33,778 nucleotides of DNA from positions 1 to 33,778 of IMG/VR virus record IMGVR_UViG_3300042339_001587. One strand, written 5' to 3'. This document shows, piece by piece, positions 22,201 through 33,778 of the stretch (within the stretch, counting starts at the first letter, position 1; each line of letters opens with the position of its first letter). Source of the DNA: a virus. Position numbers and translations under genes: made by a program. A model generated the notes under the pieces. That model had not been told where the DNA came from. It made no database searches and saw only the letters and a list, made by a program, of their open reading frames with translations.

Positions 22201-23892
22201 AGCAATTTCTTTATTTGATGAAATTACCTTGGAGCGAGCCCTTGATAGGGCTTCCTTGTGGTCAACTAGTACTGTGTCAAGAGCATCTGCGAGTTCTGCA
22301 AATCTAAAAATAACAAATGATGAATCTGCGTTTTCTGCAAATTTTGGTGTGTATGTGTCGCTTCCCTCGTTGGCGGTTGGGAATCCGCCACGCATAAACA
22401 TTGACATCGCAAATGCATTAAAAACTGCGCCAAGTAGAGATTTGTCTAGCTGTGTTCCTGCTTGCTCGTCGGAAAGTTCTCTTATTTTTTCCGCAAAACC
22501 AAAAAGACTGCGGAACATTTGATGTCTTACTAAGTCGTTCATCGTTTCGGTTGGTTTTTCTCCAAATATCATATAAGATGGAAAATAATCTTCTATTGTT
22601 GCAACTTGCATTGATTCAAATATTGCTCTAGAACCGAACGATGCAAGCGAATCTCCAGATTTCAAAAAATTTACCATTGCCACAGAGTCGTCAAAACCCA
22701 CATCGCTTGGAAGTCCATAACTCCCATAATTGGGATACATGCCGTCCAATACACGCAATCGTGCGTTTTGTCCATCCCCTATTGATATGGATGCTATTTT
22801 TTGGTACTCATTAAGTGCTGCATCAAAATCAATTTCTTCTAAGTCCGAAGACCTAAGTTTTTGTAGAAAAAGTGATGCAATTTCTTCAAATTCTGTGTCC
22901 CACCACTCTGTGGCTGCTTTTGCAGTTTCTTCGTCAAACAGCTGTGATGCAAGTCCTTCTTGTGAAATAATTGATTTAAGTTTTGCCAAACCCGCTTCAT
23001 TTGCTTTTTTTGTCGTTTTTTTGATTTCTTCTACATAGTAGGAAGAATCATTAAATCTTTCCTCGCCATACATTATGTCTAGTATTTTGTTTCTTAATAT
23101 TGACTCTTCTGGAAGGTCAAACTCTTCTGGAACCTTGCTGGCATAAGAGCCGTATTTTCTTTCCCCTACTGGCTTGTGTCCAAAAGAAATTGCCCCGACC
23201 GGACCTGTTGGTTTTCCTTCGGCTGCGTCTGGTTTCGGACGAAGCTTATTTGGTTCTCTTGGCGCCCTAGGTCTTTCCGTGGGCGACATCCTTGGTTTTG
23301 GCATTTCATCAATGTCTACTTCGGGTAGGGCTGGAGTTATTCTTGGTTGGGGTTTAACGATGTTTTCAAAATTTGTGGTTGCTGCTTCAACCGCACCTTC
23401 AACCTGATTGCCCCCAGGCGTAGGGTCGGGTATTCCACGCCCAAAGTTTATTTCAGCAATACCCTCAAGGACCAACCTGTCCTTGTCTGCGTCAACAGCC
23501 GTTGTCGGGTCCATGTTTCTTGGAGTAACACCAATTGCCTGACCAACATTTGGTCCAAGAGCCTTTTCTTCAATTGTCTTTTTGTTTATTACACGTCTAA
23601 CTCTTTGCGCAAAATCTCTGTCTTGGTTTCTTCTGCCAAGCGGGCTCTGACCGGTCACTCTTCTGTAGTCTGATTCATTGGTGCAGGGCATCCATACGAA
23701 ACCGCCGGTTGTCGAGTTGTACTGCCTAATTCCAATGCAGCCCAGCTGTCTTGCTCTCTGTCGTGCTACTTCTTTGTCTGTAAACGCATCAATTGAGCCT
23801 GGTCTGATTGACCTTGAGCCAAAGCTGAGAGACTTCTCTTGACTCTCGTTCTCTATAGGGCAACAGTCGCCCTGCTCAAAATCGTTGGTCAT
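7237..23892 (-). CDS. Giant multidomain phage protein (5551 aa), candidate polyprotein of effector domains
   Basis: One unbroken reading frame of 5551 codons (roughly 600 kDa). The motif [GS]-P-x-G-x-[MIV] occurs 14 times, at residues 230, 976, 1152, 1300, 1693, 2377, 2899, 2986, 3507, 3821, 4628, 4799, 4955 and 5264, and divides the chain into 15 segments that I label A to O. Recognisable segments are: A, Cys-module N-terminus; F, internal duplication; G, coiled coil; I, ADP-ribosyltransferase-like plus helical repeats; J, helix-turn-helix units; L, double Clp N-domain; N, NUDIX hydrolase; O, zeta-toxin-like kinase. The position between head-operon genes and the capsid gene, and the mix of domains, match phage 'polyvalent' proteins, which are thought to be packaged and injected with DNA. 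Processing at the motifs is my inference. The start ATG is preceded by GAGGGAAAA, and no internal stop or frameshift is seen. Codon use looks like that of its neighbours. Confidence 0.9.
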   Translation of the reverse strand: MTNDFEQGDCCPIENESQEKSLSFGSRSIRPGSIDAFTDKEVARQRARQLGCIGIRQYNSTTGGFVWMPCTNESDYRRVTGQSPLGRRNQDRDFAQRVRRVINKKTIEEKALGPNVGQAIGVTPRNMDPTTAVDADKDRLVLEGIAEINFGRGIPDPTPGGNQVEGAVEAATTNFENIVKPQPRITPALPEVDIDEMPKPRMSPTERPRAPREPNKLRPKPDAAEGKPTGPVGAISFGHKPVGERKYGSYASKVPEEFDLPEESILRNKILDIMYGEERFNDSSYYVEEIKKTTKKANEAGLAKLKSIISQEGLASQLFDEETAKAATEWWDTEFEEIASLFLQKLRSSDLEEIDFDAALNEYQKIASISIGDGQNARLRVLDGMYPNYGSYGLPSDVGFDDSVAMVNFLKSGDSLASFGSRAIFESMQVATIEDYFPSYMIFGEKPTETMNDLVRHQMFRSLFGFAEKIRELSDEQAGTQLDKSLLGAVFNAFAMSMFMRGGFPTANEGSDTYTPKFAENADSSFVIFRFAELADALDTVLVDHKEALSRARSKVISSNKEIAVEKIQERLSQETDSNLPINNFEFVRSIDSRDNVKIASRLAVLSKLSDEELIGFAQRLSKRGLFRRNNQANSFIDEMQPLSLDGAFQTAERVTGLSSGKINLLDLAGALYTPDFFDGWMNRDGISQTWESYLKFGKSSRTYNALKKMTPEQRARFLGLDEDMAEMLVNSAQEDMSRWTDNETIASRDLLDTLQELGMGDSEDLKLTLPPSFMHPSYPLQYGNSIVKALSHPIEQFVSSLNLRDMQLEEIWNNSHTNARKLAIDGLVGDSQETAKDTAFKIASYLFPDTWLSEISEREASPRYPNEVPTVELRRQLNRYDQPGSSFIDFAIMADKQDNSKRNTVLERNEHLINALGIIGTAIRTLGAYGDEVDTIATNVKQINNSVASEILEENGESFSEMVDEYMDGAPFAWGPSGAMANRSGFQYSREKRKSGSWSPLANYAQSSMYLDYRNKKNRKNLDIANSIDASQQEVFGEISELMLTLRERVANNTLKLADYAKSYDQKTGTLSLDFYNPKRPTSALGDSPGLLKSITMLLAIATANSRNGKERSQARQVLNELLDWAETYLPQYSRIRPGNNKELSELIANGPVGRMGVQEAYEATENKKYKTLRGRLNAFENKSQSIIFDSVADRNPVSKLKELESELDDIISEGWMNSRVLASLFETISGHMDDAFEEGISERTRKRMRPVFDGFANVMKAKYDKDYAEAFGMISLDSIQRKRRRANSRTRQETRDSSPVGSMAAGYSPTRLDTAEMNKDSHLTEEFKNRWVAIDESNQKADEILSSNNPSLVSFPGNDITFNWQNESSRLKYLTTSDKNRLIKNFIRKPNGASFPSRLRKTQELDSSGLLEEIGVYGETFEKHPFFVTFHGDKLVKFATSPSDVNADANTIKKILGAIHPELNPETFEAIYQSWIRNPFITIDTNDGKTVGVRFGLNNNDTEMRNELRKRIRDVYDFVSRITGGKVPKAQYPAEKESAATAEAEFPLTMRGLANDFFRRIQPSLLNRGHSIESLSNIFNQNAEEMALPEIANREQLLKFLQENFPGIIKNLKPESSKLDGLTSDEVTEAVEIVSMLNDGTRVLNFGEIKQLLSTKENGYELWTDDAVEEVINTVNNYTSVSGGSQLIETGPVGRMSLPGEKPSEILRDEFEAARILRSMQKAKDMTPEEEDAYRKVQWARQELENVVEEDWVRFGPFDLTNAYRPLAERQSGNLSLYIRSLGDEAAMDMFKEISSKFPDTEKEESISDFESKIRTALSKAARGDEITPNYPDSWPPEMLDSDLNEILSPKEMAAVAQVEDALDRETLVSMLGGELLGSDPEETRQEILRIVESLPKINVPEEDGSSSSIKTPEQMSQDILIEAFDGTLASAKELVDSMSEQQLDSLRKSFPISDYAKNSFNIQNLQVQRASLIRQTSVAMAKLSQTEDGRNKIRQHLTEVADLLPDGTNELLRKIQNSEIEEEDAYESLSRYVGDSESTQPVSKLWFNTAAPLFSANNETSDLLKVFENDKKNQINKLFAEIAFAEINFSEESPEKIKKQIQEFVQTNPVDGIGSRGIYIEPTTAGKTQSALEKKQLELISKYDGTSESAKEIIDSLTEEQVRKLWAKYIFPSFYRVTGTGPGSFIRKRNQKASAERAQQVLNRLEDKFKNSIYGLGGFVDADGYSADDVNMLISDAIENSFGVASLESLSKEEKKEYVSLVGYFLSGGRSLLVKGEYTEALRKIDLEKTPKSIQQRKLERIDNELSEILNDAGDKMDEAVSDLLGEYRNMSPEELEILRKLEEEFGDTKDESTSQGGEFADAPDDWEDNDPFGPVGSMARKPDGLTEKAEALLDANLTPHKKHDQKAQDEFAYVEQAAALELRKLGLETPGGFFYTDSIDDGIDPRIEASYVAEINKRVDELFENSEFRRMKSGKLVYIPQRLIGGESASAEDELIPYNPEMDEDESLRPSNFNPDRHPIASALNERYESFIGGNNNHFTRDWFGENGRYGTDAQNLLGLINNEPGLIDMDKILTYVQNQSGWIEGEDLEESMRAAESISIPIVPERYRSGGSRFGISSFSSQRRLSATEKIELDKQKKIARSKAKSSKALRDGWLNDMTTGLMLSESEIGLRDGYYPDAVLAGIKSALRENGQIDNLDSVIRAAKNASDSRSQAESRVKALARVIEITQNSGDLISEIYDIDNAINELDDAADRTSRQYQERIRSQILSRVSATASLIKAREMFIADQKEKIRSRTIAPRDYLISIQEWDSRYGPQILQMQAEIQSFSTKAEASSRTRYDIMVQKDELQKRAAELKDMVADSARYMNVLMAQRAVNEAMKNLADNNGDGVAGSGPVGSMKKIGRLFGESGVVSGFDENVDDTSNVYTPFNISMTKKEKALSNVILSQLRSVNGIQTIDLVENRTARARQRIESYRQSVQSSPVGAVRGLSNEIQDIPEVLKSVLQDEYNRSIGKMLAFENENDIRSLVNASYTPQLTPNPIGPYVIRPYDDPSVTLEPESSGYFGYEEMLPPTDKRLRIYYDALRKEVERVGGFVINPGGKSTNDEGNNHKWVQGMPVYHQANVDAVPSIIKNGLNSRDAMRIDGSQSPIDKTKKVPSGKIWLASTPAIWDEQAPRQFDGIVTMRIMPDADMISTLNRHYAKKEKNWDGLSRSPDYSTIELSDANISPKTIEILNEQGEWIPLLKAYFTTSPGMPSRTSQILNEIDGGADIYSLARKNNMPITEIFSIAAIRESLLANVKHDIQKLTLRQLINKYGFSQTRLINAIDASKKANKFRKSYSQMMKRFNELAPTNTLASSYEILNEEFPEITKIRGMGSAAKLITLNDELLDSVREKISRAMRLFSDYPNMVPRVAAGLTGISQDSAKSIYKALLNDENRTPRPVPTAIRASSPMPADWDYMTYGERQDWLSSDEAKQRMGARARGFAAQRNAEDIESSGSMDGPYGAIASALKKANLDKDIYGTNSSDENGVSPTFSWRGLKDSDLIRTGFLSTSKFIESIPNLQTLNDENFAVFLNTSPAIAQKLRSGKFNLSFNAARKLAYSIGKNPENIWPTYAASEQKNGPDGDLLWISGNWSEMKPVFESIESGQNDSEISGALGRAINPKMATARKLATNGKLEDFYKQVGKKNPSIDEVSKFMSSLMPESRRETVASFAKAGYSESEIVETTGFNPNTVRNLLHELRKSGMAPSSIGSQEWIAKNRKAIVDDIESGMSKRQAMRKYGIGAAALNSVIQPKEENARPRQSFRNAYEEMASGPSGAMSNRRIASDASQSNGPTPEWDSENPEVGVFLPDSPPVMVGSPFHGPIEARRFSDGEPKDQEALDKWFPGLVDLLKYHVNGGELFDSSVESEEDAPSVYAESEKDRTKPVNEMIRANQFPGLIRSMRHMMGESYKQMVAEQQAIEEFGPDGYSERGDSALEREYQPGFIDVESITSLDSPIAKEIMMIYRSLGRVTSGFVPGDSSWINDAVRLMSRDSELEKIGLNEDSRNKIKEWMRTATAREFKAAQAMSAIHSMMIDVVNDVNSAMFPNNQFTGRTVADDQMLGWYFDRIFKAIYDEADSSFVLEDISREKGDSFVRLNPEQIERWYDSTKDIGETMAALFADAIEFSSTNSKFSDDSFNMLSVAPRKAADGKFSIYGPDIVYSGMEDSRPYNKAVKWFARPGTEEEVESLYDSYEKSPDAYWWQGEDGQISTTEPITTKDILSMDSGGEFSEYMRILTESIAESPDENASVILRQLFGITPSGGTSLNKDELALNQAYSQLSGFLRGEVDSLKENRTRVSENMTMSSYFPWVNWSNSSDAYPVISGDIQSLLTPEQAERYEKINTFTQERIDSLDGAAKAAYQKYVELAKNTSAINNLRKTRGRLDESLKPLDKVFEEIKKLQENPENASETVGLLAELQQFAEEIGAQQIADTIDGIAMKIFEALQGNATDYNPNFKDAKTLMLNLVQNEFAQYLKFFDSAMSVGDAFEKIAQFIKAEDKKTRRNSLMPRYKREVIDAAPASTFSTDFKNIRTFDSWLNDNGYEDLTYEYYSSADEIPKNFFGESSEINDDRIVPPGDGPIGKMALNRYTKPNIMSVVHAHEEAKLGKSSEVTIPYLLLGLARENIGKKSVNQSIAGRVLNRLGISVNDLRDAISKTLTPSTSDDSGKVASLSFSARKTMINSVREALNRGENIIDTEHLIASIARAKDGRDDGLSEILKSLGTSKSELLAESVSTMKRFSMGRFPNESGPIGKMGIARDATLQRDREIEALRADENASNLWFNKDRNPGIRNNTASDSEQVQELQRLMDLYVSGVADKSISANDFREGTSPFSSDSILPTNSSLIYGEIGEEPSDIIGAIAYRSNLIDAMIDRSGKDYKDYTDIIAKAKSLFNNDKHIELFNDDSPTGRMSTFDGLIKSYEGIYGMPTMQPQDEYYESVYGTRDIASDSLRRAAYTVSKYSPLDISKNLTSGDDDDVEWSTNNWSLAKNRLMQASDAVIVRMNNNDLRSAEVLMIDRKSGPFTNAKALVGGLRDGSEDYMTTATREGLEEVGIDLESSIEARPLGIITSPDWDPRFVKGARVGAGLFIVPWDSNVTAASDAKAASWVPLEDIARGKYPIAFGHAEWLRRAVAKMGKDYEGSNSADPFSDLRLSIALRLNILAKAQRIRNQRILARINKVRSEKDAEKFLPNDKMPHPLMPWGAEFKSDSWNPDGPVGKMARPSRPIVDKSLAQDLGLLDYQSGYSIDELNSSSPIPTSQKYRLSGNKVSDDRYNGLWIPYMENSISRVSKPEFNEGKEQPTVYVLGGSSGTGKTIARTSGFSGIPSYNDAVVIDPDDAKMVMPEARYWYERQLPDAANLTHAESRALAASLMRRASSEGIDMTYDTSGQFNDGNKDLINWRKAGYKIVAHYFFSPDDVILKRNAERFERTGRMVPDWIPPVINRNLYFQLPNLDAFFDELFVYDTTNDPMNPIMVARRAINEQLEVMDPKLFDFANFDKGR
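7240..8085 (-). other. Segment O of the giant protein: zeta-toxin-like P-loop kinase
   Basis: Residues 5270-5551, the C-terminus. Walker A GGSSGTGKT at 7801-7827 (residues 5356-5364) after VYVL. Then AVVIDPDDAKMVMPE, LTHAESRALAASLMRRA, DMTYDTSGQ and KRNAERFERTGRMVP, the order of motifs in zeta toxins and related polynucleotide or nucleotide-sugar kinases. Zeta toxins phosphorylate UDP-N-acetylglucosamine, so a cell-wall or nucleotide target is possible. Confidence 0.8.
8086..8103 (-). repeat. Motif copy 14: GPVGKM
   Basis: Residues 5264-5269 of the giant protein, between the NUDIX and the kinase segments. Confidence 0.85.
8104..9012 (-). other. Segment N of the giant protein: NUDIX hydrolase domain
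   Basis: Residues 4961-5263. The Nudix box G-x5-E-x7-RE-x2-EE-x-G-I is complete at 8584-8652 (residues 5081-5103), with GGLRDGSED and ATREGLEEVGI as its ends. A preceding strand (DAVIVRMNN, AEVLMIDR) and a following VGAGLFIVPW complete the fold. Probable role: hydrolysis of a nucleoside-diphosphate-linked compound (NAD, ADP-ribose, cap or NTP). Confidence 0.85.
9013..9030 (-). repeat. Motif copy 13: SPTGRM
   Basis: Residues 4955-4960; directly before the NUDIX segment. Variant with Ser first and Thr third. Confidence 0.8.
9031..9480 (-). other. Segment M of the giant protein: unknown
   Basis: Residues 4805-4954, between the Clp N-domain and the NUDIX segment. Acidic and helical, no known motif. 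Confidence 0.4.
9481..9498 (-). repeat. Motif copy 12: GPIGKM
   Basis: Residues 4799-4804; end of the Clp N-domain segment. Confidence 0.85.
9499..9993 (-). other. Segment L of the giant protein: double Clp N-domain without an AAA+ motor
   Basis: Residues 4634-4798 contain two Clp repeats: about 4642-4704 (HAHEEAKLGKSSEVTIPYLL ... VLNRLGISVNDLRDAI) and 4723-4783 (ARKTMINSVREAL ... DTEHLIASI ... ILKSLGTSKSELL). This is the substrate- and adaptor-binding N-domain of ClpA/ClpC-type unfoldases. The whole fold fits exactly between two motif copies, with no Walker motif nearby. Confidence 0.75.
9994..10011 (-). repeat. Motif copy 11: GPIGKM
   Basis: Residues 4628-4633; start of the Clp N-domain segment. 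Confidence 0.85.
10012..12414 (-). other. Segment K of the giant protein: unknown, the longest segment
   Basis: Residues 3827-4627, 801 residues between two motif copies. It contains aromatic-rich patches (SPDAYWWQGEDG, SSYFPWVNWSNSSDAY) and a helical C-terminal third with coiled-coil character. No family recognised. Confidence 0.4.
12415..12432 (-). repeat. Motif copy 10: GPSGAM
   Basis: Residues 3821-3826; between the helix-turn-helix segment and segment K. Confidence 0.85.
12433..13356 (-). other. Segment J of the giant protein: array of helix-turn-helix units
   Basis: Residues 3513-3820. At 12640-12753 (residues 3714-3751) a clear helix-turn-helix: AGYSESEIVETTGFNPNTVR. A second follows at about 12505-12603 (SGMSKRQAMRKYGIGAAALN). 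Residues about 3570-3625 look like an XRE-type unit (SPAIAQKLRSGKFNLSFNAA). A likely DNA-binding effector. Confidence 0.6.
13357..13374 (-). repeat. Motif copy 9: GPYGAI
   Basis: Residues 3507-3512; one of the copies with Ile in place of Met, so no start codon is present. Confidence 0.75.
13375..14919 (-). other. Segment I of the giant protein: ADP-ribosyltransferase-like domain plus helical repeats
   Basis: Residues 2992-3506. Around residues 3121-3240 MPVYHQANVDAVPSIIKNGL (VYH at 3123-3125), then SGKIWLASTPAIWDE and later STIELSDANISPKTIEI. This resembles compact phage and toxin ADP-ribosyltransferase or Tpt1/KptA-like folds, with a 'YH..' strand, an 'I-x2-GL' helix and a 'iw-lA/fs' strand. 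Catalytic Glu not identified with certainty. Following residues 3250-3440 hold repeated helix-turn-helix-like units (for example LRQLINKYGFSQTRLINAI). Confidence 0.45.
14920..14937 (-). repeat. Motif copy 8: SPVGAV
   Basis: Residues 2986-2991; the most divergent copy (Ser first, Val last). Confidence 0.6.
14938..15180 (-). other. Segment H of the giant protein: short spacer-like unit
   Basis: Residues 2905-2985, the shortest segment (81 residues) between two motif copies. Basic, helical second half (RTARARQRIESYRQSVQ). If the motifs are cut, it would be released as a small peptide. Confidence 0.4.
15181..15198 (-). repeat. Motif copy 7: GPVGSM
   Basis: Residues 2899-2904; follows the coiled-coil segment G after a Gly/Asp-rich linker. 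Confidence 0.85.
15199..16746 (-). other. Segment G of the giant protein: C-terminal coiled coil
   Basis: Residues 2383-2898. The second half (about 2650-2890) is rich in Lys, Glu, Gln, Arg and Ala with heptad-like spacing and should form a long coiled coil. The first half is mixed with no recognised family. Confidence 0.45.
16747..16764 (-). repeat. Motif copy 6: GPVGSM
   Basis: Residues 2377-2382; follows a very acidic linker. Confidence 0.85.
16765..18798 (-). other. Segment F of the giant protein: helical with an internal duplication
   Basis: Residues 1699-2376. Two related stretches, at about 18034-18130 and 17374-17473, share the pattern x-DGT-x2-SAKE-[LI]-[VI]-DS-[ML]-[ST]-E-[EQ]-Q, so part of the segment arose by duplication. 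Very acidic near the end (EFADAPDDWEDNDPFG). No enzyme motif seen. Confidence 0.5.
18799..18816 (-). repeat. Motif copy 5: GPVGRM
   Basis: Residues 1693-1698; between segments E and F. Confidence 0.85.
18817..19977 (-). other. Segment E of the giant protein: unknown mixed alpha/beta
   Basis: Residues 1306-1692. It has strand-rich parts (HPFFVTFHGDKLVKFA, PFITIDTNDGKTVGVRFG) unlike the helical segments beside it, so it probably contains a folded alpha/beta domain. I cannot assign a family. Confidence 0.4.
19978..19995 (-). repeat. Motif copy 4: SPVGSM
   Basis: Residues 1300-1305; follows an Arg-rich tail. Confidence 0.8.
19996..20421 (-). other. Segment D of the giant protein: unknown, basic C-terminal end
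   Basis: Residues 1158-1299. Helical, with KLKELESELDDII as a likely short coiled coil, ending in an Arg-rich stretch (RKRRRANSRTRQ) just before the next motif copy. Basic tails next to a possible cleavage site could bind DNA; function unknown. Confidence 0.4.
20422..20439 (-). repeat. Motif copy 3: GPVGRM
   Basis: Residues 1152-1157; between segments C and D. Confidence 0.85.
20440..20949 (-). other. Segment C of the giant protein: unknown helical
   Basis: Residues 982-1151. A basic N-terminus (SREKRKSGSW, NKKNRKN) followed by helices; LLKSITMLLAIATA is hydrophobic but too short and interrupted to be a confident membrane span. No recognised domain. Confidence 0.4.
20950..20967 (-). repeat. 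Motif copy 2: GPSGAM
   Basis: Residues 976-981; between segments B and C, same six residues as copy 10. Confidence 0.85.
20968..23187 (-). other. Segment B of the giant protein: unknown, mostly helical
   Basis: Residues 236-975, one of the two longest segments. Predominantly charged helices with scattered aromatic patches (for example YPNYGSYGLPSDVGFDD). I see no known catalytic motif, Cys cluster or membrane span. Confidence 0.4.
23188..23205 (-). repeat. Motif copy 1: GPVGAI
   Basis: Residues 230-235; ends the N-terminal Cys-module and Pro-rich linker. Ile in place of Met. Confidence 0.75.
23206..23892 (-). other. Segment A of the giant protein: Cys-module N-terminus plus Pro-rich linker
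   Basis: Residues 1-229. Residues 50-70 read LGC-x-G ... GGFVWMPC (Cys52, Cys70), matching a module at the start of the 279-aa protein encoded just upstream. Residues about 185-229 are Pro/Arg/Lys-rich and probably disordered, leading to the first motif copy. The module could be a shared packaging or assembly tag. Confidence 0.6.
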
Positions 23893-23950: not shown

Positions 23951-24790
23951 CTATTTCTCATTCAGGTATAAGCCCTTGTGGGATTTGAGTTTCCTTCTTG
24001 ATGGGACCCTGTGTTCAATGTCAATAAGTTTAGATAAAACTGGCGCAGAAACAATTCCACCACCATCAAGTGAGGATATTCCAACAGGACCACGTTCATT
24101 GAGTTTTTCCCAATTAGCACCACGGAGTTTTCTTTTTGCTTTTCTTGGGGAGCCATTGTCTATTGACTCAAGTCGTTCTACTATCTTGGATTTAACCAAG
24201 ATTATCGGTTGGTGAGATTTTGTGGATTCTCGCCTTGCCTGCGCAGCGGCTTCGGTATTTCTTACAAACTGTTGACCGGAAACGCTGCCTTTTCTTTTCT
24301 TTTTGTTTGTGGCCAATTTTTGTCCAGGCGTAAGTTTTGCCCAAGCTTTTGATGGAAGGTACCTTCTTGTTCCACCAGTCCTTATTGCGGGCTTACCGTC
24401 AGAGGTTGTCCATTTTTCTTTAGTCCATTTAGAAAGAGACCTTTGCTTTTTGTCTTTTCCGCCCTTGTATCCGCCACCTCTTTTTTTATACTCTTGTGCT
24501 ACAAGCTGGGCTTTTCTGGCTGACCATTGCCCAGGTTTTCCACCTCTTGAGCCAGCCATAATCCTGTTTTTGATTCCTTCTCTTAATTCAGGCTTTGTGT
24601 AGTTGGATGATTTTTCCTCCAACTCCGACTTTTCCAAAAAAGAGTCGTTTTCTGCCTCGTTGCTCAGTCTTTGGAGTGTTTGCATGTCAGCGCACGGCAT
24701 CCATTCGCCTTTTTCATTTTTATGTGCTCCACGGCACCCCATGTATCGAGCAATCTTTAAAACTTGTTTTTTTCTGTCAGATTCGTTCAT
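23951..24790 (-). CDS. Basic protein with N-terminal Cys module and DUF5872-like domain
   Basis: A 279-residue, strongly basic protein. Residues 16-33 read YMGCRGAH ... GEWMPC (Cys19, Cys33), the same module as near the N-terminus of the giant protein. Residues about 66-180 carry GSRGGKPGQWSARKAQLVA, GGGYKG, SLSKWTKEKW, RRYLPSKAWAKLTP and ATNKKKRKG. From memory this matches DUF5872, a domain of unknown function found in some phages and in algae and their viruses. A GPVGIS copy lies at residues 234-239. The high Lys/Arg content suggests nucleic-acid binding. The start codon overlaps the upstream stop (ATGA), and the giant gene begins 58 bases downstream, so the two are probably co-expressed and perhaps co-packaged. 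Confidence 0.75.
   Translation of the reverse strand: MNESDRKKQVLKIARYMGCRGAHKNEKGEWMPCADMQTLQRLSNEAENDSFLEKSELEEKSSNYTKPELREGIKNRIMAGSRGGKPGQWSARKAQLVAQEYKKRGGGYKGGKDKKQRSLSKWTKEKWTTSDGKPAIRTGGTRRYLPSKAWAKLTPGQKLATNKKKRKGSVSGQQFVRNTEAAAQARRESTKSHQPIILVKSKIVERLESIDNGSPRKAKRKLRGANWEKLNERGPVGISSLDGGGIVSAPVLSKLIDIEHRVPSRRKLKSHKGLYLNEK
24074..24091 (-). repeat. Motif copy in the 279-aa protein: GPVGIS
   Basis: Residues 234-239 of the neighbouring protein, 40 residues before its C-terminus. It keeps GPVG but has Ile-Ser afterwards, so it may be a relative rather than an active site. Confidence 0.6.
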
Positions 24791-25218: not shown

Positions 25219-28200
25219 CTATCGCTTGTACGGTGTGTGTGTCGTTCCATCTTTTTTGGTTACTACAATTCTTCCCAGCAACTCTTCTGAATCCTCAATT
25301 GATGTTGCCTCATTTAGCAGAATCAATCCACTTCTATTTGTAACCATTATATGGTTTTCTTCATCGTATTTGCCAGGGGCAATACGTAAATATTGCTTAA
25401 CTGGGTCAAGGTTGAATGCCCCCGAACTGCTACTCAGGTATAAATCAATACCAAGTATCGGTGCAAAAAGCACTTCATCATCAAGGTGACGTATATATTG
25501 CTGACCCCTAAACAGGCGTTTTACCTGCTCGTCCTCATCTGTAAGCCCCATTGCGTAAAGGGCATTTTTCGCAATTTCTAGCTGTACATACCATCCAAAT
25601 ATTTCATTTCTTGTTGCGGCAAACCAGTCTTGCCCACCAATTATATTTTCAAGATAATCTGTTCCGGAGAAGGTTCTAGCCATATAATCTGGAACTTCAA
25701 ACAAGAATTCATTGCCGGCTGGCCTGTTTGATGACAAGCCAGCCATAATTGACGTATAGAGAGCTTGTACCGAGGCGGGGTCTGACCAAATAGCATTCCC
25801 AGGCATCGGAAGTGCATTAACTGATATTTGTCCCCAATATGTATCCGCATTGTCGTCGCTGTATCTCTCACCGCCATGTTTTGCATGTCCATCTTCGCGG
25901 GTTATTTTTGCATTGAGAAAATTCGTCAAGGTTTTTATTTGACTCGCCAGAACATTCATTTCCGAACGACCAGTTATTCTTCCAGTGCGCGGTACTAGGG
26001 CGAGTATCGTAGCCATGTCCTCCCTGTTACCGTGATATCCAGTCATGGGTCGAACGGCAGAGGAGAAGTTGTCGCCCTCTCCACCTGCAGAAGCACCTTC
26101 TCCTGCGGTTACATACCTGTCCCTGAATATGTAGTCCAATACCATTTCTTTTTGGCTTTTGCCAGTTTTGGCTCTTTGTATTCCTCTCACTATAGGAATA
26201 AACATTGGCTGGTCGTTATCATCAAACATTTTCAAAAGCGACTCAGCTTCATCGGTGGAAACAACAACGGTAGGCTCGTTGTATCCGTTTAGGCCATGAA
26301 CCGCAGTGTGTGATGCTTTATCGTAATTATTTAGATTCTCTAGAGTTTCGTAGTGAATCATTGAATCACGAGCTATTTGTACTGTATTAAAGAAATCAAT
26401 TTGATTTTCCGACAAAGTTGATGTTTGATATTCTTCACCTGGCTGCAAAACTAATGGCTGCTGTTCAAAAAGACCCAATGTTCTGTTTGTGTTAAAAATA
26501 CTCATTATGTCGTCGGGTGTTCTCAGGATTAAGTTACCATCTTCACCTTTTAGTGGGGCAAGCAGTGTCGGGTCAACTCCGCCGACTACTCGGGTTCCAT
26601 CTTTTTGTGCTTTCACTCTTGCAACAGCCAGCTTGTTTCTTATTCTCGCAGAATTCACCATAGTTTCTCTAATGGATTCCCTTATTCTTGGGAAAACAGA
26701 AGGAAATACTTTTTCTGATATTTCTTCAAGCGACTCTGCCAGTTGTGCATTGAGGACAAATTCTCTTCGTTGTCTCTGATTATTCTTAGGAGTTCTTCTC
26801 CAATCGGACAAGGCTGAGTCTCTTGAGCTGACTGCGTCAGAATGGGCCCTCTTTAGTTCCTGCCATGCCTTGTACCATGCGTTTCCATCGTTTGATGCCA
26901 ATGCTCCGTTTATTGCTTCCATCACCTTGGAAGCATCGGTAACCGCATAGCTCCAACCAACATTTTTGTCTTTTGCAATAAACAGTGGAAGAGATGGTGC
27001 CTTGTCTCCATCCATACCTGAAACTGCAGAGCCATTCCTGGAATAACTTCTTCTTGTACTGAAGTACTGGTCACCATCTGCGTTTCTTACTGAATCTGGT
27101 GTTCCTGGTGTGCCGTCTGCGTTTGGTGGTATATCAACAATTATTAAACCCGGATATTCTTTTTTGACTCTGTCTGGCAGGCTTTCCCAGATGGCATCTC
27201 TTGATTCTTTATATGAGCCCACGCTGAATTCGTGAGTATTGGGAGCCAAAGAAATAAAACGGTCCTGTCCGCCAGGACCGCCGACACTTGATTTTATCTT
27301 TGGATAAGAAATTATTTCCGTACCAGTCTTGGCCGACCTTTGCATCTGAGGGTATGGTTGCATCGGAGTGAACTCGGTATCTATTGATATCGGGAAATCT
27401 GCATAATCCTCTTGATACTGACCAGATATTGGGTCACGCAATAGACCTGTGTATTCCTCAATTACGTATCCAGCGTTTTCTGAAGCATCCTGCGTTCCAT
27501 GTTCAACAGCAGGAATGACGACATTTGTAACTTCATCATTTGTTGGGTCAATAGCAGAGTTAACATCAAGCACTTCTGGGGTATCTGTTTCCGTTGAAAC
27601 AGCATCAACATCATCCGGCGCTGTCGGTTGTGGGGCAACATCTTGAGCGTCTGGTGGGTTTGTGTCAACTGGAAGGTTTGGCTGATTTGTTTTCTTAGGT
27701 CTTTTTGGGGCAGTTGGCGCAGATGGTTTTTGTCTTGGTGTTTGAGTTTTGTTTTTTGAAAGCAAGCCGGCATCTTCCAAAATCCATTCCCTCAAACCAG
27801 GCTTGAGAGACGCCCAGTCGGACTTTTTGTTTTTTGGGTAAAGCGGTTCTGTCGTGTCAAGGAAGTCGTCAATTACGACTATGTTGTGTGCTTGGTTTTT
27901 TATTATTGCAGCTTTTCTTGGTTGGGTTTTTGCCAAATTTGACATCCATTGGTCAATTGACTCTTCGGTTAGGTCATCTGATGGATTCAGTCCTATTCGT
28001 TTTCTCCAGCCATTCTCAAGCCTTGCTCTGGCTTTTTTCATTGAGTCTTCTATTGAAGTTTGTTCTGCTGGGGTATAGGCATCCCAATCTTTTATTGTTT
28101 TTGCAACTCTTTGCGATGGGACTATATTTCCATACATCAAACTACGAGGGTTTGTTTTGCTTAGGGAAACAGACCTGGCTCGTTGTCTAACGCCAACAGG

Positions 28201-29559
28201 TTTATTATTTTTTGCGGATTCATTTGGGAGTACAGAATAATCAGTTTTTGGTTTGCTGAGTCTGTTTGCAAGTCTGTCTAGTCTTTGTGCGGCCCTAGAG
28301 CGCATTGACTCACCAGAACTGTCTGGTGTTTTGCCAATTTTTTTGCGCTTCTTATCTCTTCTTCTGCTTGCTTCAAAAGCATCATCTGGAGTTAATGAAC
28401 GACTTCTAATCTTTTTGTCAATTGGAGAAATTTTTGGATTTTTGCCTTTTCTTACTCTTCTGTTTGAACTTGGCAAAATATTTTCACCGTCTTCATCGGG
28501 CTTGACATCGGCCGGAGCCGGAGGAAGGGAGAGTTGCTCTCTGGCTCCAGAACGTTGTTCTGCGCGTCGTGCTGTTCTTGAAGTAACAACATCTGCTTCA
28601 TCAAATTCTTGTTCATTCAATTTTGGTGCAACTCTTTGACCACTTACCCTGTCCGCAAAGCGAGCAATTCTTTCAGCACGAGAATTTCTTCTATTTGAAC
28701 GTGCTTTAGGCTTTGGTATGTACGTGTCAACAATGTCGGTTTCTATAGGCTCTTCAAGTTTTGCAAGTCTTCGTTCTGTTCTTCTTTGTTGTGAACGAAT
28801 TTTGTTGGCCTGCGTCCTTGAGGCTCTCGCTAGTGATTGGGCAGAACGAAGGTCTCCTCTTGCTTCTAGCAATGCCCCACGTCCACCAAGGGGTGTGTTC
28901 GGGTCGCCACCAGCGAGGTCTATAAGCCTTGAGCCGAGCCGTCTAGCCATTCCTGGCAAACAGCCTCGTCCGAATCTGTTTGTGAACTGTCCTGCGCTGT
29001 CTCCGCTAGTTGGCGGGCATCTCCAGGACCCACCACCTGGACTGTCTGGGTCCCACACAGCCCTTACCCCCTTCACTCCAAGCAAGAGGGACGAAGAGGC
29101 CTTATCTGATGTAAATGCTTTTGCTTTGAAGTTTACGGCGCTTTGTTTGAACTGAACCTCGATAAGACTTAGTGCCACATCGGTTATTGGCCACTCAGAT
29201 ATGAGCTCATACTCAGCTTCTGATGAGAATTCATCCATGTCTTCAGGGAGGGATTTTTTCTCAATTTTTAAAACAGGCTCATCAATAAGATTCTTTAGCT
29301 TATTGAGAGTTTTAGGAGAAAGTATTTCTGATATTAAAGAAAGTGATTCGTCGTTGAGCATTTTCTCTTTTTCAAAATCCAAACCAAAGTCAAGAGAATC
29401 CAGGATTTCTTGTCTGGTTATTCTTGCCCTGTTCGCCCATGAGGCCCAATCATCTGCCTGGCTTGTATTTCCTATACATGTTGGTCCATTTTTTGATACG
29501 ACAATTGCGCCATATGGGACTTTTGTATCAGAATCTCTAATTAGCGTGAATTTACTCAT
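25219..29559 (-). CDS. Large phage protein (1446 aa) with shared Cys module and possible ADP-ribosyltransferase domain
   Basis: The order of parts is: an N-terminal region; KQSAVNFK at residues 138-145; a WRCPPTSGDSAGQFTNRFGRGC box with Cys181 and Cys200; a long basic, probably disordered region (about 220-600) with repeated RR and SRR; a Pro/Asp-rich linker (about 620-720); and a folded C-terminal half. In that half MFIPIVRGIQ (Arg1125), a Gly/Ser-rich GEGDNFSS and MATILALVP resemble the R-S-E order of ADP-ribosyltransferase toxins, but the final catalytic Glu is not certain. KQSA and the Cys box are also in the 686-aa protein. The reading frame allows an upstream TTG, but ATG 29559 lies in the ATGAGTAA overlap with the previous stop and is preferred. 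Probably a packaged or head-associated polyvalent protein. Confidence 0.75.
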   Translation of the reverse strand: MSKFTLIRDSDTKVPYGAIVVSKNGPTCIGNTSQADDWASWANRARITRQEILDSLDFGLDFEKEKMLNDESLSLISEILSPKTLNKLKNLIDEPVLKIEKKSLPEDMDEFSSEAEYELISEWPITDVALSLIEVQFKQSAVNFKAKAFTSDKASSSLLLGVKGVRAVWDPDSPGGGSWRCPPTSGDSAGQFTNRFGRGCLPGMARRLGSRLIDLAGGDPNTPLGGRGALLEARGDLRSAQSLARASRTQANKIRSQQRRTERRLAKLEEPIETDIVDTYIPKPKARSNRRNSRAERIARFADRVSGQRVAPKLNEQEFDEADVVTSRTARRAEQRSGAREQLSLPPAPADVKPDEDGENILPSSNRRVRKGKNPKISPIDKKIRSRSLTPDDAFEASRRRDKKRKKIGKTPDSSGESMRSRAAQRLDRLANRLSKPKTDYSVLPNESAKNNKPVGVRQRARSVSLSKTNPRSLMYGNIVPSQRVAKTIKDWDAYTPAEQTSIEDSMKKARARLENGWRKRIGLNPSDDLTEESIDQWMSNLAKTQPRKAAIIKNQAHNIVVIDDFLDTTEPLYPKNKKSDWASLKPGLREWILEDAGLLSKNKTQTPRQKPSAPTAPKRPKKTNQPNLPVDTNPPDAQDVAPQPTAPDDVDAVSTETDTPEVLDVNSAIDPTNDEVTNVVIPAVEHGTQDASENAGYVIEEYTGLLRDPISGQYQEDYADFPISIDTEFTPMQPYPQMQRSAKTGTEIISYPKIKSSVGGPGGQDRFISLAPNTHEFSVGSYKESRDAIWESLPDRVKKEYPGLIIVDIPPNADGTPGTPDSVRNADGDQYFSTRRSYSRNGSAVSGMDGDKAPSLPLFIAKDKNVGWSYAVTDASKVMEAINGALASNDGNAWYKAWQELKRAHSDAVSSRDSALSDWRRTPKNNQRQRREFVLNAQLAESLEEISEKVFPSVFPRIRESIRETMVNSARIRNKLAVARVKAQKDGTRVVGGVDPTLLAPLKGEDGNLILRTPDDIMSIFNTNRTLGLFEQQPLVLQPGEEYQTSTLSENQIDFFNTVQIARDSMIHYETLENLNNYDKASHTAVHGLNGYNEPTVVVSTDEAESLLKMFDDNDQPMFIPIVRGIQRAKTGKSQKEMVLDYIFRDRYVTAGEGASAGGEGDNFSSAVRPMTGYHGNREDMATILALVPRTGRITGRSEMNVLASQIKTLTNFLNAKITREDGHAKHGGERYSDDNADTYWGQISVNALPMPGNAIWSDPASVQALYTSIMAGLSSNRPAGNEFLFEVPDYMARTFSGTDYLENIIGGQDWFAATRNEIFGWYVQLEIAKNALYAMGLTDEDEQVKRLFRGQQYIRHLDDEVLFAPILGIDLYLSSSSGAFNLDPVKQYLRIAPGKYDEENHIMVTNRSGLILLNEATSIEDSEELLGRIVVTKKDGTTHTPYKR

Positions 29560-31612
29560 TTGATTGCCCAATGTACTTCTTTAGAAGCGATACTGATGTT
29601 GAGAGTTTTCTAATTCTAACTTCAAATAAAGACTTCATAATATCTATGTGTTTTTTTTCTGATTCGCTCATTTGTCCATCAATTGATGCCCTGTTTGCAA
29701 AATCGTCAAAATTAAAAGACCTTGCTCTTTCTAGCAATTCGTCCAACATTGATAAAGCTTTACTTCTCTGGTTTTTTCTTAGTTTTTCAAAATAATCCTT
29801 ATATGTCAATTTATCACTTTCCTGGAGTATTGCGGCAATCGGCATATTTATTCTATCGGATTGATTTTTTCTACTTGAGCCGGAAAGTCCTGAGTATATA
29901 GAGGGGCTTGCAAAAGTTCTTTTTTTATTGCCAGTTAGAATTGTATAGATTGAAGAAGGATTCCTCATTTTGGAGTCAGTTAACAAATCTGATATAAAAA
30001 GTCTTGACATATCGGATGTGCTTGCCATGTTCATTGAGGCTGTTCTCGTAGAGCGAGATGTTGCAACGGAGTCGTTTGGATAAGAAACAAGGTATCTTCG
30101 TCTTGAGCCTTCTCCAGAAAACCAAATATCCGGCGAAAGCATACCTAGGTGTGATTGAATTTCAGATGAAAGCATCGCGCCGAGGTGTTCGTATTCGAGA
30201 GTTGGCGAGACTTCATATATCTTCTGTCTTCCAATTTCGTGTTCGATTAATCTGTTGTTTATTTTCCTAGTCTCTACGGATTTGCTTTTTGCAAGTGCCG
30301 TCCCCCGGAGGCGAGGCTGAATGTTCCCAATTTGTCCACCAGAGTTAATTAACTTTACGGCTTCAGAAAGAGACTCAACAAAACCAGACTCATCTTCTAT
30401 CTGTGTTTTTCTTTCACTCAAAACAGCTTTTGGATATTTAATAAAAGCCTCGTGATGCCATCTCCTCATTTGTTTTTTTGTTTTATTATCTGGCATAAGG
30501 ACTTCTATAACATCATTTGGATTTTTTATGTTTTCAAATTTTTGTTCGTAAGCGATTGCGCCGTTCATTTCGGCCGCTATCATTTCAAGTCTTGAAGCTG
30601 GATTCTGCCCCATCTTCATTCTCTCTGCATCAGCTACCGTTCTTCCAAGTTTTCTTCTTTCGCCCGAAGTAAGATTTCTTTTTTTGCGTAGAGAAATCGT
30701 TGAGCCGTCTGGCAAAACATAAATGACACTATTTATTCCGGTATTTGAAAGCATTCCAAGCTCTGTTTTGCCTATTTCGCTTGCGGATACAACTTTCTGG
30801 ATGTAGGCTGCGGCCTCCATATCCCTGTTGTCCGGAACGGTTCTTAGGACACGAGAAGAAACAACTGGGGTCAAAACAACCCCATCCCTTCTCACAATCC
30901 TTGAAACACTTCCCGAAACCAGTCTCATTTCCTGAACAACATTTGCTATTGCTTTTTTGTAAGCATCAAAATTCATCCGTGAAACTTTTGGAATTATTAT
31001 ATTTGGCTGTCTTATCAATGAAACCTGATTGTTTCCAATTAGTGGTTTTATGACTCGCCCAGCTGTACTAATTTCTCGTGGGGTATTTCTTGAGGCAAGT
31101 TCTGATACATTCTGCAAACCTGAAGCTATTGATGTTGCTAGCTCAAAAAGTCTTTTGCCACAGGTGGTGTAAAGCTTGTCCGTGAACCTACCGCCAAACT
31201 GAAAGCCTTCAGGGCATCTAAAACCACGCTCAGGCTTCGGGAAACCACCAGCACTTGCTCTTGCGAGCGGGTTTGGTATTCCACTTCCACCAGGCACCAA
31301 CATTGACCAAGCAGCAGAGCGCAATGGGTTCTTTAGGTCACCCGGCAAAACCGAGCTTACCAGTGACTGAATTCCCTGTCCAATTGGGTTGTCACTGCTT
31401 GCTATACCAGCCTTCACCGAAATAGAACTTTCTTTTGATAGGGACATGTGGGCTCTGCATTTAAACTCAATTGCGCTTTGTTTGTCTGTTACTGCAACCA
31501 ATGGACATTTGACCACATTTGGGCGCGTAACAGCAATTGCTGGCATTAGTGTTCTATTTCTGGTAACACTTTTCTTATCGCACGCAGCGCATTCGGCGGT
31601 TTTTTTATGCAT
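29552..31612 (-). CDS. Phage protein (686 aa) with Cys-rich N-terminus and possible kinase-like C-terminal half
   Basis: The N-terminus has Cys8 and Cys11 (CAAC), Cys36, Cys52 and His55, which may bind zinc. KQSAIEFK at residues 44-51 and the box FRCPEGFQFGGRFTDKLYTTC (Cys133, Cys151) match the 1446-aa protein, so the two share an N-terminal module. The middle (about 300-340) has VIYVLPDGSTISLRKKRNLT. The C-terminal half contains EYEHLGAMLSSEIQSHLG, then SRRRYLVSYPN and LFISDLLTDSKMRNP. This order loosely recalls HipA/FAM20-like kinases (helix, 'lv' strand, 'D-L-x-N-x-D-R'), but the catalytic Asp-Arg is replaced, so activity is doubtful. ATG 31612 is used because it overlaps the previous stop (ATGCATAA); a TTG one codon upstream is the alternative. 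Confidence 0.7.
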   Translation of the reverse strand: MHKKTAECAACDKKSVTRNRTLMPAIAVTRPNVVKCPLVAVTDKQSAIEFKCRAHMSLSKESSISVKAGIASSDNPIGQGIQSLVSSVLPGDLKNPLRSAAWSMLVPGGSGIPNPLARASAGGFPKPERGFRCPEGFQFGGRFTDKLYTTCGKRLFELATSIASGLQNVSELASRNTPREISTAGRVIKPLIGNNQVSLIRQPNIIIPKVSRMNFDAYKKAIANVVQEMRLVSGSVSRIVRRDGVVLTPVVSSRVLRTVPDNRDMEAAAYIQKVVSASEIGKTELGMLSNTGINSVIYVLPDGSTISLRKKRNLTSGERRKLGRTVADAERMKMGQNPASRLEMIAAEMNGAIAYEQKFENIKNPNDVIEVLMPDNKTKKQMRRWHHEAFIKYPKAVLSERKTQIEDESGFVESLSEAVKLINSGGQIGNIQPRLRGTALAKSKSVETRKINNRLIEHEIGRQKIYEVSPTLEYEHLGAMLSSEIQSHLGMLSPDIWFSGEGSRRRYLVSYPNDSVATSRSTRTASMNMASTSDMSRLFISDLLTDSKMRNPSSIYTILTGNKKRTFASPSIYSGLSGSSRKNQSDRINMPIAAILQESDKLTYKDYFEKLRKNQRSKALSMLDELLERARSFNFDDFANRASIDGQMSESEKKHIDIMKSLFEVRIRKLSTSVSLLKKYIGQSNE

Positions 31613-32210
31613 CAAATTCTTCTAGTTCCCAATTTTCGTCGTTTGATATCCAACTAGAAAAATCATGCTCCATGGATATGAATTGTTCAAGCACCTTGAA
31701 TGCGTGGTCCCAGTCTTCGTTCGTAACCACAGGAACAAACGGACCATCATTCATTGCAGTATTGCCCGAGGCTATTGCGGTTTTTCGACCAGCACGAGAT
31801 GTAATTTTTTTAATTCTATCGTCAAATTCTTGGTCATTCCATATAGAGCCTTTTGCAATCCCACGAAGTTTTTTTCTGCAGTTTTTCATGCCTGGATGAT
31901 GGCAACCCTCGTTTGGCCATAGGCCTGTGGTCTCATGGTGAAGCCATGCGCAAATATTGTTCAGCGGGTAAAGCTCTGGGTGGTCAGCAAGAATAACCCT
32001 ACATCTTCTGAAACCGCCTGGCTTTTTCATAATTGGTCGCCAGTATCTCAAGAGTCGCTCAAGGTTGCCACGTCTTGGACCACGGCCCCTTAGTAGGTCT
32101 CCAGTGATTCTTTCCTGCGGTATGGCATCTGGTGGGACGGCAAGTTTTTCTGATGTGTTGCCAAGATTTTTTATTACAAGGCGGTCAGGTATGTAGTTAT
32201 TTTCATTCAT
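31605..32210 (-). CDS. Conserved-looking Cys/His-rich phage protein, unknown function
   Basis: A 201-residue protein. Its centre is a dense cluster of Cys, His and Trp (FRRCRVI, NNICAWLHHETTGLWPNEGCHHPGMKNCRKKLR split over residues about 65-115), which suggests a zinc-binding fold. The N-terminal part is basic (LLRGRGPRRGNLERLLRYWR) and the C-terminal part acidic (DENWELEEFDA). I recall similar small proteins in actinophage head regions, but cannot name a family. Its start overlaps the upstream gene by eight bases and its end overlaps the next by eight, so it is tightly coupled. Confidence 0.7.
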   Translation of the reverse strand: MNENNYIPDRLVIKNLGNTSEKLAVPPDAIPQERITGDLLRGRGPRRGNLERLLRYWRPIMKKPGGFRRCRVILADHPELYPLNNICAWLHHETTGLWPNEGCHHPGMKNCRKKLRGIAKGSIWNDQEFDDRIKKITSRAGRKTAIASGNTAMNDGPFVPVVTNEDWDHAFKVLEQFISMEHDFSSWISNDENWELEEFDA

Positions 32211-32629: not shown

Positions 32630-33778
32630 TTACATCCCCTTGTTGCTTCCTGTAGCCCATTCAATCATTTCTGAGTGAAGCCTATCAAGAAGGTCTTTCT
32701 CTTGTTCCGAGAACTGTGCAAGCGAATCAGCACCTTCAAGCATTTTTGCAACATGCAGCTCTGCGTACCCCTCGGCGTTCGAGGCCGCATAATTTTTTGC
32801 TGGTTTTGTGCCGGGGTAATATGCCGGGCCAGCATAGATGGATATATATGGCAATAGTGCAGAGATAGAAGCAATTTCTTCATCTGAAAAGTTTTTCCAA
32901 CCATTATTGTTTTGTCTAACCATTAGCTCGTTTACATACATTAATAGCTGCTGATAAAGACCGTCGTCATTTACTTTATCAATTACTGAAGCAACATATT
33001 TTGCTTTATCAAACTTTCCATTTTCGTCAAACCAATCCCTTTTTCCGTAAATGGCCCCAGCAAAATTTTGCATGAACTCATCTATTGCATTTTTGTTACC
33101 AGTTAAAATATCCGTCAATAAATAATGCATTCTGTCAAAACCGAATGTTTGCTTGTTCAGCCATTTGAGAATTGGCACCATATTCTGCAGCTTGGTCTGA
33201 AACTTTTCCATCATCTCCTCTGCCTGAACAAGCTGTCTGTCCATCATTGACAAAGTTGCCCGCATTGATTGGAGTACCTCCAACGACTCGTCTTGGCTTG
33301 GTTTGAGTATTGAACTCAAAATTGAATTTATAATAGAATCTAAGCCGGACTCAAGCGAAAGAGCGTTGTCCATGCTATTTCTTACATCTAACTCACTTGT
33401 TCCAGACATTGAAGAGGAAATACTTTCATTGAAAGTTTTTATTTTTGCATCAAGTTCTTCCCTTTGTTCAATCATTTTGGGGACATCTCGCAGCATTGCA
33501 TCGTGTGCCATTTTTGTTTGTAGTGCATCCATTACTTGGTCAACAACAAATTTCGTTGCGTACATATCCGAGATATCTTCCATAAATGGAGAACTCATTC
33601 CGGATTCAATTGCTGACAATTCTGCTACGGCTAAACGAAATTCTCTGGCGGAATTTAAACCTTTCCCATAGTTTTTATTTGAAGCATTTGTTGAATTACG
33701 CCAATCACCAACTTGGTCGAGTAGGTGTCCAAATTCGTGAACCCCAACCAAAAATGTAGAAACTTTTAGAATTTCGTC
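32630..33778 (-). CDS. Zincin-like metallopeptidase, C-terminal part (partial at right edge)
   Basis: The frame is open to the window edge (a TTG at 33751 is an internal codon rather than a true start), so the N-terminus lies outside. Close to the edge HEFGHLLD (33725-33739 for HEFGH) is the HExxH zinc motif of zincins, preceded by a hydrophobic strand (VSTFLVGV). Far downstream NAEGYAELHVAKML could supply the third, glutamate ligand. Between them are long helices (residues rich in Leu, Met, Glu). Such zinc peptidases are common in phage polyvalent and head-associated proteins. A portal or MuF-type region may precede it outside the window. It could be the enzyme that processes the giant protein, but nothing in the sequence proves this. 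Confidence 0.75.
   Translation of the reverse strand, partial: DEILKVSTFLVGVHEFGHLLDQVGDWRNSTNASNKNYGKGLNSAREFRLAVAELSAIESGMSSPFMEDISDMYATKFVVDQVMDALQTKMAHDAMLRDVPKMIEQREELDAKIKTFNESISSSMSGTSELDVRNSMDNALSLESGLDSIINSILSSILKPSQDESLEVLQSMRATLSMMDRQLVQAEEMMEKFQTKLQNMVPILKWLNKQTFGFDRMHYLLTDILTGNKNAIDEFMQNFAGAIYGKRDWFDENGKFDKAKYVASVIDKVNDDGLYQQLLMYVNELMVRQNNNGWKNFSDEEIASISALLPYISIYAGPAYYPGTKPAKNYAASNAEGYAELHVAKMLEGADSLAQFSEQEKDLLDRLHSEMIEWATGSNKGM

Follow-up and report, generated by a model that had tools for sequence, protein, structure and literature searches.

The DNA analyzed here (the window) was the whole of the IMG/VR virus record IMGVR_UViG_3300042339_001587, 33,778 bases in length. Its edge carries an ORF of 382 residues on the minus strand (32630..33778), whose 5′ end is cut by the record edge and which has no true start codon within the record. 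The motif HEFGHLLD (33716..33739, minus strand) begins at residue 14 of this ORF, that is, the record stops 13 residues ahead of HEFGH. As judged from the sequence and from invariant alignment columns, its two His are predicted to be zinc ligands and its Glu the catalytic residue, with an Asp three residues on, and a Glu in the downstream SNAEGYAE (32759..32782, minus strand) is the presumed third zinc ligand. In an alignment of nine sequences of this zincin module (designated module B), the window included, columns H329, E330, H333 and D336 were invariant, as were N649, E651, Y653, A654 and E655, which make up an N-x-E-x-Y-A-E present in 9/9 sequences; the distance from HE to the downstream E was 316–409 residues in the eight homologues measured. 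These invariant residues exclude a chance match of HEFGHLLD and confirmed that the zinc motif is intact, as the first-pass annotation had stated; a matching glutamate lies downstream, and the zinc peptidase is real. With respect to the features by which Iyer et al. (2017) recognize zincin-like MPTases, HExxH is present in module B, and so is, judged by conservation, the Glu ligand on the next conserved helix. Module B also has, as the invariant D336, the Asp three residues after HExxH that marks the phage-type zincin clade in the excerpted text of that paper (PMC5512222). A conserved His at the end of strand 2, also characteristic of that clade, belongs to a part of the module absent from the window copy. 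Profile searches of the window ORF gave weak sub-cut-off matches, in Pfam to families that are not peptidases and in PHROGs to unnamed entries (best E 0.024 and 0.03), and the full-length gene described below also gave weak sub-cut-off matches only (best E 0.051).

The other genes discussed here lie on the minus strand as well. A conserved 201-aa protein (31605..32210), used as an anchor, has 63% mean column identity in 12 sequences, with many invariant Cys, His and Trp; it had no Pfam match at E ≤ 1, and its PHROGs matches were all of unknown function. Next to it are a conserved 687-aa protein (29552..31615), which has a homologue in 32 of 33 sequence sets, the window included, and is missing in the truncated G003, and a 1450-aa protein (25219..29571) that bears no motif site. 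The 279-aa protein (23951..24790; Pfam DUF3721 and DUF5872) carries one site of the GPVG type (RGPVGIS). Ten motif sites of the extended pattern were found in the 5551-aa giant protein (7237..23892), at residues 230, 1152, 1300, 1693, 2374, 2899, 2986, 4628, 4799 and 5264, and its Clp_N, NUDIX and Zeta_toxin matches all fall between motif sites. The HK97-type major capsid protein (5572..6891; Pfam PF05065, 149 bits) is without a motif site.

The full-length gene and its operon in relatives

Relatives were collected by querying viral_contigs with the 201-aa neighbor, which gave 291 related stretches, 80 of which were kept. For the S78 search 42 records were chosen, and 39 were examined further (G008, G015 and G034 were left out), many of the 39 being covered only around the operon. 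A gene block recurred in nearly all of 32 records compared, with the portal in 31, the S78 protease in 31, a 500-aa protein in 32, the 201-aa protein in 30 and the 687-aa protein in 31. In tblastn searches of 50,697 phage records, no match was obtained for the ORF, the full-length gene, part of the giant protein or the 201-aa protein, and the capsid protein was matched. A scan of bacterial genomes turned up a single contig (L209, 12 kb, placed in a Phycisphaerae MAG) with a 56% identical relative of the 201-aa protein beside large ORFs; this is possibly a phage contig in the bin, and it names no host.

The first relative found in viral contigs, locus L002 of G001 (a 173,962-base record, 174 kb), matched all 382 residues of the window ORF with 79% identity. 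There the full-length gene encodes 1748 aa (L002:5903-11149; 1759 from stop to stop) and contains a second zincin, designated A (DHELNH...NEAMAELG), which precedes the HEFGH module, as well as a CGPG...FTNIFGIGC stretch ahead of that module. Two motif sites, hereafter words, lie inside the gene, SPVGAI and GPLGKI, and the second directly precedes the module whose later part corresponds to the window ORF. Among homologues, the words directly before module B are GPLGKI, GPLGKM, APTGSM, GPFGSM and GPMAAM. The position of the module behind the second word of the 1748-aa gene shows that the HEFGH gene is a module of a larger chain and not a stand-alone peptidase at the operon head. Since zincin A lies in the same gene ahead of module B in G001, its place for the window would be beyond the contig edge. 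An EF-hand-like loop (DGDNDGSVQD) was also seen in the L002 gene shortly before a word, and similar loops recur in several large operon proteins, including those of G016 (DGDGDGxVQDxTxFERP) and G025.

In G001 (lengths from stop to stop), the operon starts with a portal carrying a MuF domain (750 aa), followed by a 3190-aa protein with matches to S78 prohead protease, DUF6321 and sigma-70 region 4 and with 10 words. The S78 match (PF04586) scored 43.4 bits against a cut-off of 21 and covered residues 30-173; S78 is likewise fused to a word-bearing chain in G013 and G030. Genes for proteins of 168 aa, 515 aa and 870 aa (3 words) and the two-zincin protein (2 words) come next, then the counterparts of the window's 153-, 201-, 687-, 1450-, 140- and 279-aa proteins, and finally a 5347-aa giant (10 words) and the major capsid protein. 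The two-zincin gene is thus a multidomain chain encoded between the portal-MuF and capsid genes. In the zincin-less G023, G033, G039 and G041, a single ORF of 666-785 aa contains both the S78 protease and the 201-aa protein, which are encoded separately in the other records examined; the fusion ties the 201-aa protein to the protease or to the core of the prohead.

The first-pass annotation had placed the peptidase at the head of the operon, upstream of all motif-bearing proteins. The head position is a contig-edge effect, as the ORF is open at the contig edge and the full gene in G001 is preceded by genes on the same strand. The upstream position holds within the window, for the giant and the 279-aa protein, but not in G001, where the 3190-aa and 870-aa proteins lie ahead and the two-zincin gene itself bears two sites. 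The domains recognized in the window giant and in the large proteins of G001, G009, G013, G030 and G036 included Zeta_toxin, NUDIX, Clp_N, DnaJ, sigma-70 region 4, KTSC and pentapeptide repeats, an effector-like set that, by its domain matches, would suit ejected proteins.

Zincin modules A and B

HExxH with a downstream ExxAE was found in 26/26 zincin A candidates, of which 19 make up one sequence cluster and the other 7 were identified by where their genes lie; G013 has HEPKH, with its Glu placed by alignment. In G033, G039 and G041, the gene in the place of zincin A has a short N-terminal match only and no HExxH. Profile searches with 18 zincin A stretches gave no peptidase family at E ≤ 0.01, and in the profile comparison of zincins A and B only 50 columns around HExxH aligned (probability 66%, E 5.7e-5). 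A further zincin-like family (HEFFHxxLGQGFTRHGE) was noticed near the C-terminal end of another large protein in G010, G013, G017, G018 and G019 (HEMFH in G019).

Module B was detected by profile search in 9/39 records (G001-G004, G010, G013, G014, G017 and G018), with only its first part in G003, where the contig ends. The AlphaFold2 models were weak, with a mean pLDDT of 65.9 for module B and a still lower 55.6 for zincin A. Foldseek gave no match at E ≤ 0.001 with the module B model (pLDDT 65.9), and a second structural search with the zincin A model (pLDDT 55.6) gave no row at Z 5 or more. In the second search with module B, the only recognized zincin among the 50 matches listed was anthrax lethal factor (chain residues 554-776), which aligned over 193 residues with Z 9.1, an rmsd of 5.2 and 14% identity to model residues 43-694; this Z is tied with unrelated coiled-coil rows and lies in the range where the tool warns about helical models. 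The match agrees with the sequence signs but proves no fold, and the helix-flanked three-stranded sheet of zincin-like MPTases (Iyer et al. 2017) is thus at most hinted at by this one match.

These results bear on the possibility that module B does no processing and acts instead as an effector, which would be released at the word preceding it and ejected to cut a protein of the host. Such a role is an option given for domains of this kind in the excerpted text of Iyer et al. (PMC5512222), and it fits the start of the module directly behind a word in homologues, the anthrax lethal factor match, and the occurrence in 9/39 records only, as expected of an accessory effector. Its structural argument is weakened by the coiled-coil ties and the helical-model warning attached to Z 9.1. 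We consider it a reasonable possibility short of an even chance, and an effector role of module B is not exclusive of the explanation preferred below.

Lineage-specific words and their association with zincins

Counts of over-represented patterns in the large proteins showed that most lineages have a different word. These were GPVGxM (G001-G003), PSGSM (G004), LSGSM (G007), ISGRM (G009, G022), PTASM (G010), GLxGAM (G012), DSGAM (G013), EAGM (G014, G017, G018), I[ST]GKM (G021), GLRSxT (G024), RGMASR (G028), GMRSR (G030), GFSSxT (G035), STRS (G036) and SMRS (G040), among others. The word is largely uniform within one phage and differs between lineages, with roughly 10 to 40 sites per phage where it is clear. 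In G001, 26 sites were counted in 16,051 operon ORF residues vs. 3 in 40,025 other ORF residues, with a pattern slightly wider than that of the per-protein counts given above, and the strict GP[VI]GxM occurred 12 times in the operon vs. none elsewhere.

The words were spelled by many different codon combinations: 11 at 11 GPVG sites in G001, 18 at 27 GMRSR sites in G030, and 30 at 33 STRS sites in G036. This synonymous variation indicates selection on the peptide; it also ruled out, together with the lack of Met in some words, that they are internal starts with Shine-Dalgarno sequences or DNA repeats. The word was moreover found to change in place. The giants of G001 and G004 are 36.8% identical, and between these two phages the word is switched with its position kept at 6/10 sites of the giant and 7/11 sites of the S78 protein (strict pattern); between G004 and G010 the position is kept at 5/9 sites. 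None of 87 word sites, from eight proteins of six sequence sets (window, G001, G009, G013, G030 and G036), lay inside the Pfam stretches considered, vs. 6.1 expected, the overlap being counted for only the best stretch of selected domain families. The flanks of the words were somewhat richer in disorder-promoting residues (0.675 vs. 0.63).

These properties could also be those of words that remain uncut and serve as docking or packaging tags, or as constrained linkers, that recruit chain segments into the prohead. The location outside recognized domains, the slightly disorder-prone flanks, and the near confinement of the G001 words to the portal-to-capsid operon would all suit such elements. 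However, many sites of a phage have changed together and in place, which calls for a reader that has changed with them, and the conserved portal, capsid and 201-aa proteins do not look like one; a packaging tag would also presumably need few copies. Uncut words are regarded as rather unlikely.

For the co-occurrence count, a zincin was taken as HExxH followed by ExxAE within 60-420 residues, in a protein of at least 600 aa, and some zincin was found in 32/39 records. One of two broad word classes, which were defined after the words had been seen, exceeded all 40 shuffles in 30/32 zincin-bearing records and in 0/7 zincin-less ones. The zincin-less G026, G031, G033, G039 and G041 were covered whole, G023 nearly whole, and G027 over 40 of 129 kb. 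The two misses were the 18-kb fragment G006 and G014; the latter has a word of its own, EAGM, at 18 sites vs. 0.23 expected. Four records (G016, G018, G025 and G042) passed by one site only; of these, G018 has 24 EAGM sites, while G025 has no coherent word despite two HExxH sites. In a blind count on seven records added once the first words were known, a word was found in 5/6 with a zincin (not in G025) and none in the zincin-less G027. In the zincin-less G026, one narrow pattern (STRS or [ML]RSR) reached 2 sites vs. a shuffle maximum of 1; word counts for this record excluded its proteins with collagen-like repeats.

With locally shuffled proteins as the background, another blind count flagged the zincin-less G026, G033, G039 and G041, with patterns of other kinds (RCPxG, ARRLA, ERxAxR and LNSxxS); this count, in which masked stretches were read as letters in several records, was excluded as a test. 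A first scan had suggested that G006, G011, G016, G029 and G038 are zincin-bearing and wordless, but by class-based counts G011, G016 and G029 do have words, as do G006 and G038, though with a weak signal.

The co-occurrence of peptidase and GPVG-motif proteins that the first-pass annotation had proposed to look for thus extends to zincins generally (30/32 vs. 0/7), but not to module B (9/39). For module B itself, the refuting case named in the first-pass annotation was found: phages such as G009, G021, G028, G030 and G036 lack the module although their large chains carry many words. At the same time, the giant head chains punctuated by a lineage-specific word that travels with zincins form a stronger pattern than could be seen from the window alone.

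The zincin-less records lack giants as well as words, and in a quick tree of the 500-aa protein all 26 zincin-bearing records fall in one clade (SH-aLRT 91). A single joint gain could therefore explain the co-occurrence without any enzyme-substrate tie. This is one argument for regarding the locus as an ordinary conserved head-operon gene, misread at the contig edge, in which zincin and motif are unlinked; the other is that the head-of-operon impression was indeed an edge effect. Such an explanation leaves the lineage-specific words and their in-place change unexplained, and we judge it clearly improbable.

Candidate proteases and comparison with known systems

The explanation we prefer, to which we assign a probability of about 0.4, is that a zincin encoded in the operon, more likely A than B, cuts the words, which would be processing sites specific to each phage in packaged polyproteins. 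The window ORF is the C-terminal module (B) of a two-zincin protein of about 1750 residues, encoded in the head operon of a family of uncultured tailed phages. By or behind the portal-MuF and S78 genes, this operon encodes giant proteins, the largest of about 5500 aa, in which effector-like domains follow one another, with sigma-70 region 4, NUDIX, Clp_N, DnaJ and zeta-toxin kinase in one or other giant. The head would take up the giant chains as polyproteins, and cutting at the words would split them into separate modules for ejection, most likely by zincin A, which would lie in the same gene beyond the window edge. Module B, as it starts right behind a word, is probably a released piece too, and might act as a second protease or as an effector. 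Many words contain Met, and Ile, Leu or Val replaces it at some sites. A hydrophobic P1′ preference is common to many metalloproteases; words of the Met type would suit it, while STRS, without a hydrophobic residue, does not.

The first-pass annotation had proposed the HEFGH peptidase as the processing enzyme of the motif-bearing chains, with other proteases outside the window as equal candidates. The general link between zincins and words supports the first proposal in part, but a general processing role of module B is unlikely. The second was borne out by the S78 prohead protease in the operon of relatives such as G001. In a rival explanation, head maturation would include cutting of the words by this S78 protease, which in G001 forms the N-terminal domain of a chain with words, and the zincins would be cargo. 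This is suggested by PF04586 matches above the cut-off in 38/42 records and by the fusions to word-bearing chains in G001 (3190 aa), G013 and G030. The prohead protease gp245 of SPN3US offers a parallel, as it cuts several head proteins at one motif according to the excerpted text of its description (PMC10052503). However, across lineages with very different words the identity of the S78 core to the G001 core is 64-100% (31 records compared), and the word-less G023, G026, G031, G033, G039 and G041 keep S78 at 68-80% identity. The capsid protein is 70-94% identical to that of the window, and its N-terminal arm is nearly constant across lineages and carries no word. Apparent S78 swaps in G004 and G039, seen in a tree of the first 330 residues, were not borne out by the cores, which share 86% and 80% identity with the G001 core; the sequence following the domain is not homologous and had misled the tree.

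If the words change, the enzyme that reads them would be expected to change as well, which favors zincin A over S78. S78 and the capsid arm are conserved, while identity to the L002 stretch is only 12-26% for zincin A stretches other than the closest pair; for S78 this comparison used a trimmed core, and for the zincin a long stretch whose flanks are poorly conserved. From these rates we infer that zincin A is the better candidate for the cutter, and we consider cutting of the words by S78 unlikely.

If the words are cut by a zincin of the operon, each lineage might have a private, fast-changing cleavage code, in which the zincin and its many word copies turn over together; we put this forward tentatively and as doubtful. 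As capsids 70-94% identical to the window's go with unrelated words, each phage might cut only its own polyprotein, for example in co-infection, and an exchanged module would have to adopt the local word, a suggestion that is equally speculative. Such words would represent a natural library of protease-substrate pairs whose specificity was switched many times in place, with many internal replicates, so that the joint specificity change of a processing protease and all its sites would become testable. The modules ejected into the host could then be read off from the words, and the published idea of zincins as processing enzymes of polyvalent phage proteins would gain sequence support. In the titles and abstract openings searched, no description of lineage-specific words of this kind was found.

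Anthrax lethal factor has an HExxH and a distant Glu. Module B resembles lethal factor-like gluzincins in this arrangement and in the one structural match (Z 9.1 over 193 residues). It differs from lethal factor in the low identity (14%), the long helical insert between HExxH and Glu, and its location in a phage head operon without a delivery-toxin context.

The closest description is that of polyvalent phage proteins by Iyer et al. (2017), whose excerpted text reports zincin domains in such proteins, proposes self-processing of the chains, and gives P1 DdrB as a processed example that is cut before packaging (PMC5512222). By its sequence features the window's gene appears to fit the zincin kind of these polyvalent proteins: large multidomain chains encoded among virion genes, with at least one HExxH...E zincin and the phage-type Asp. 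Unlike those proteins, for which the excerpts of that paper describe no repeated punctuation motif, the chains here are marked by a lineage-specific word, and their operon has an S78 protease that in G001 is fused to a word-bearing chain. The words can further be likened to the cleavage motif of SPN3US, in which packaged head proteins share a short motif cut by gp245, with several copies in one propeptide (PMC10052503). In the excerpted account of SPN3US head maturation, 14 protease sites cut by gp245 were mapped in nine proteins, whereas here 10 or more sites lie in single chains, relatives use different words, and there is little variation in S78.
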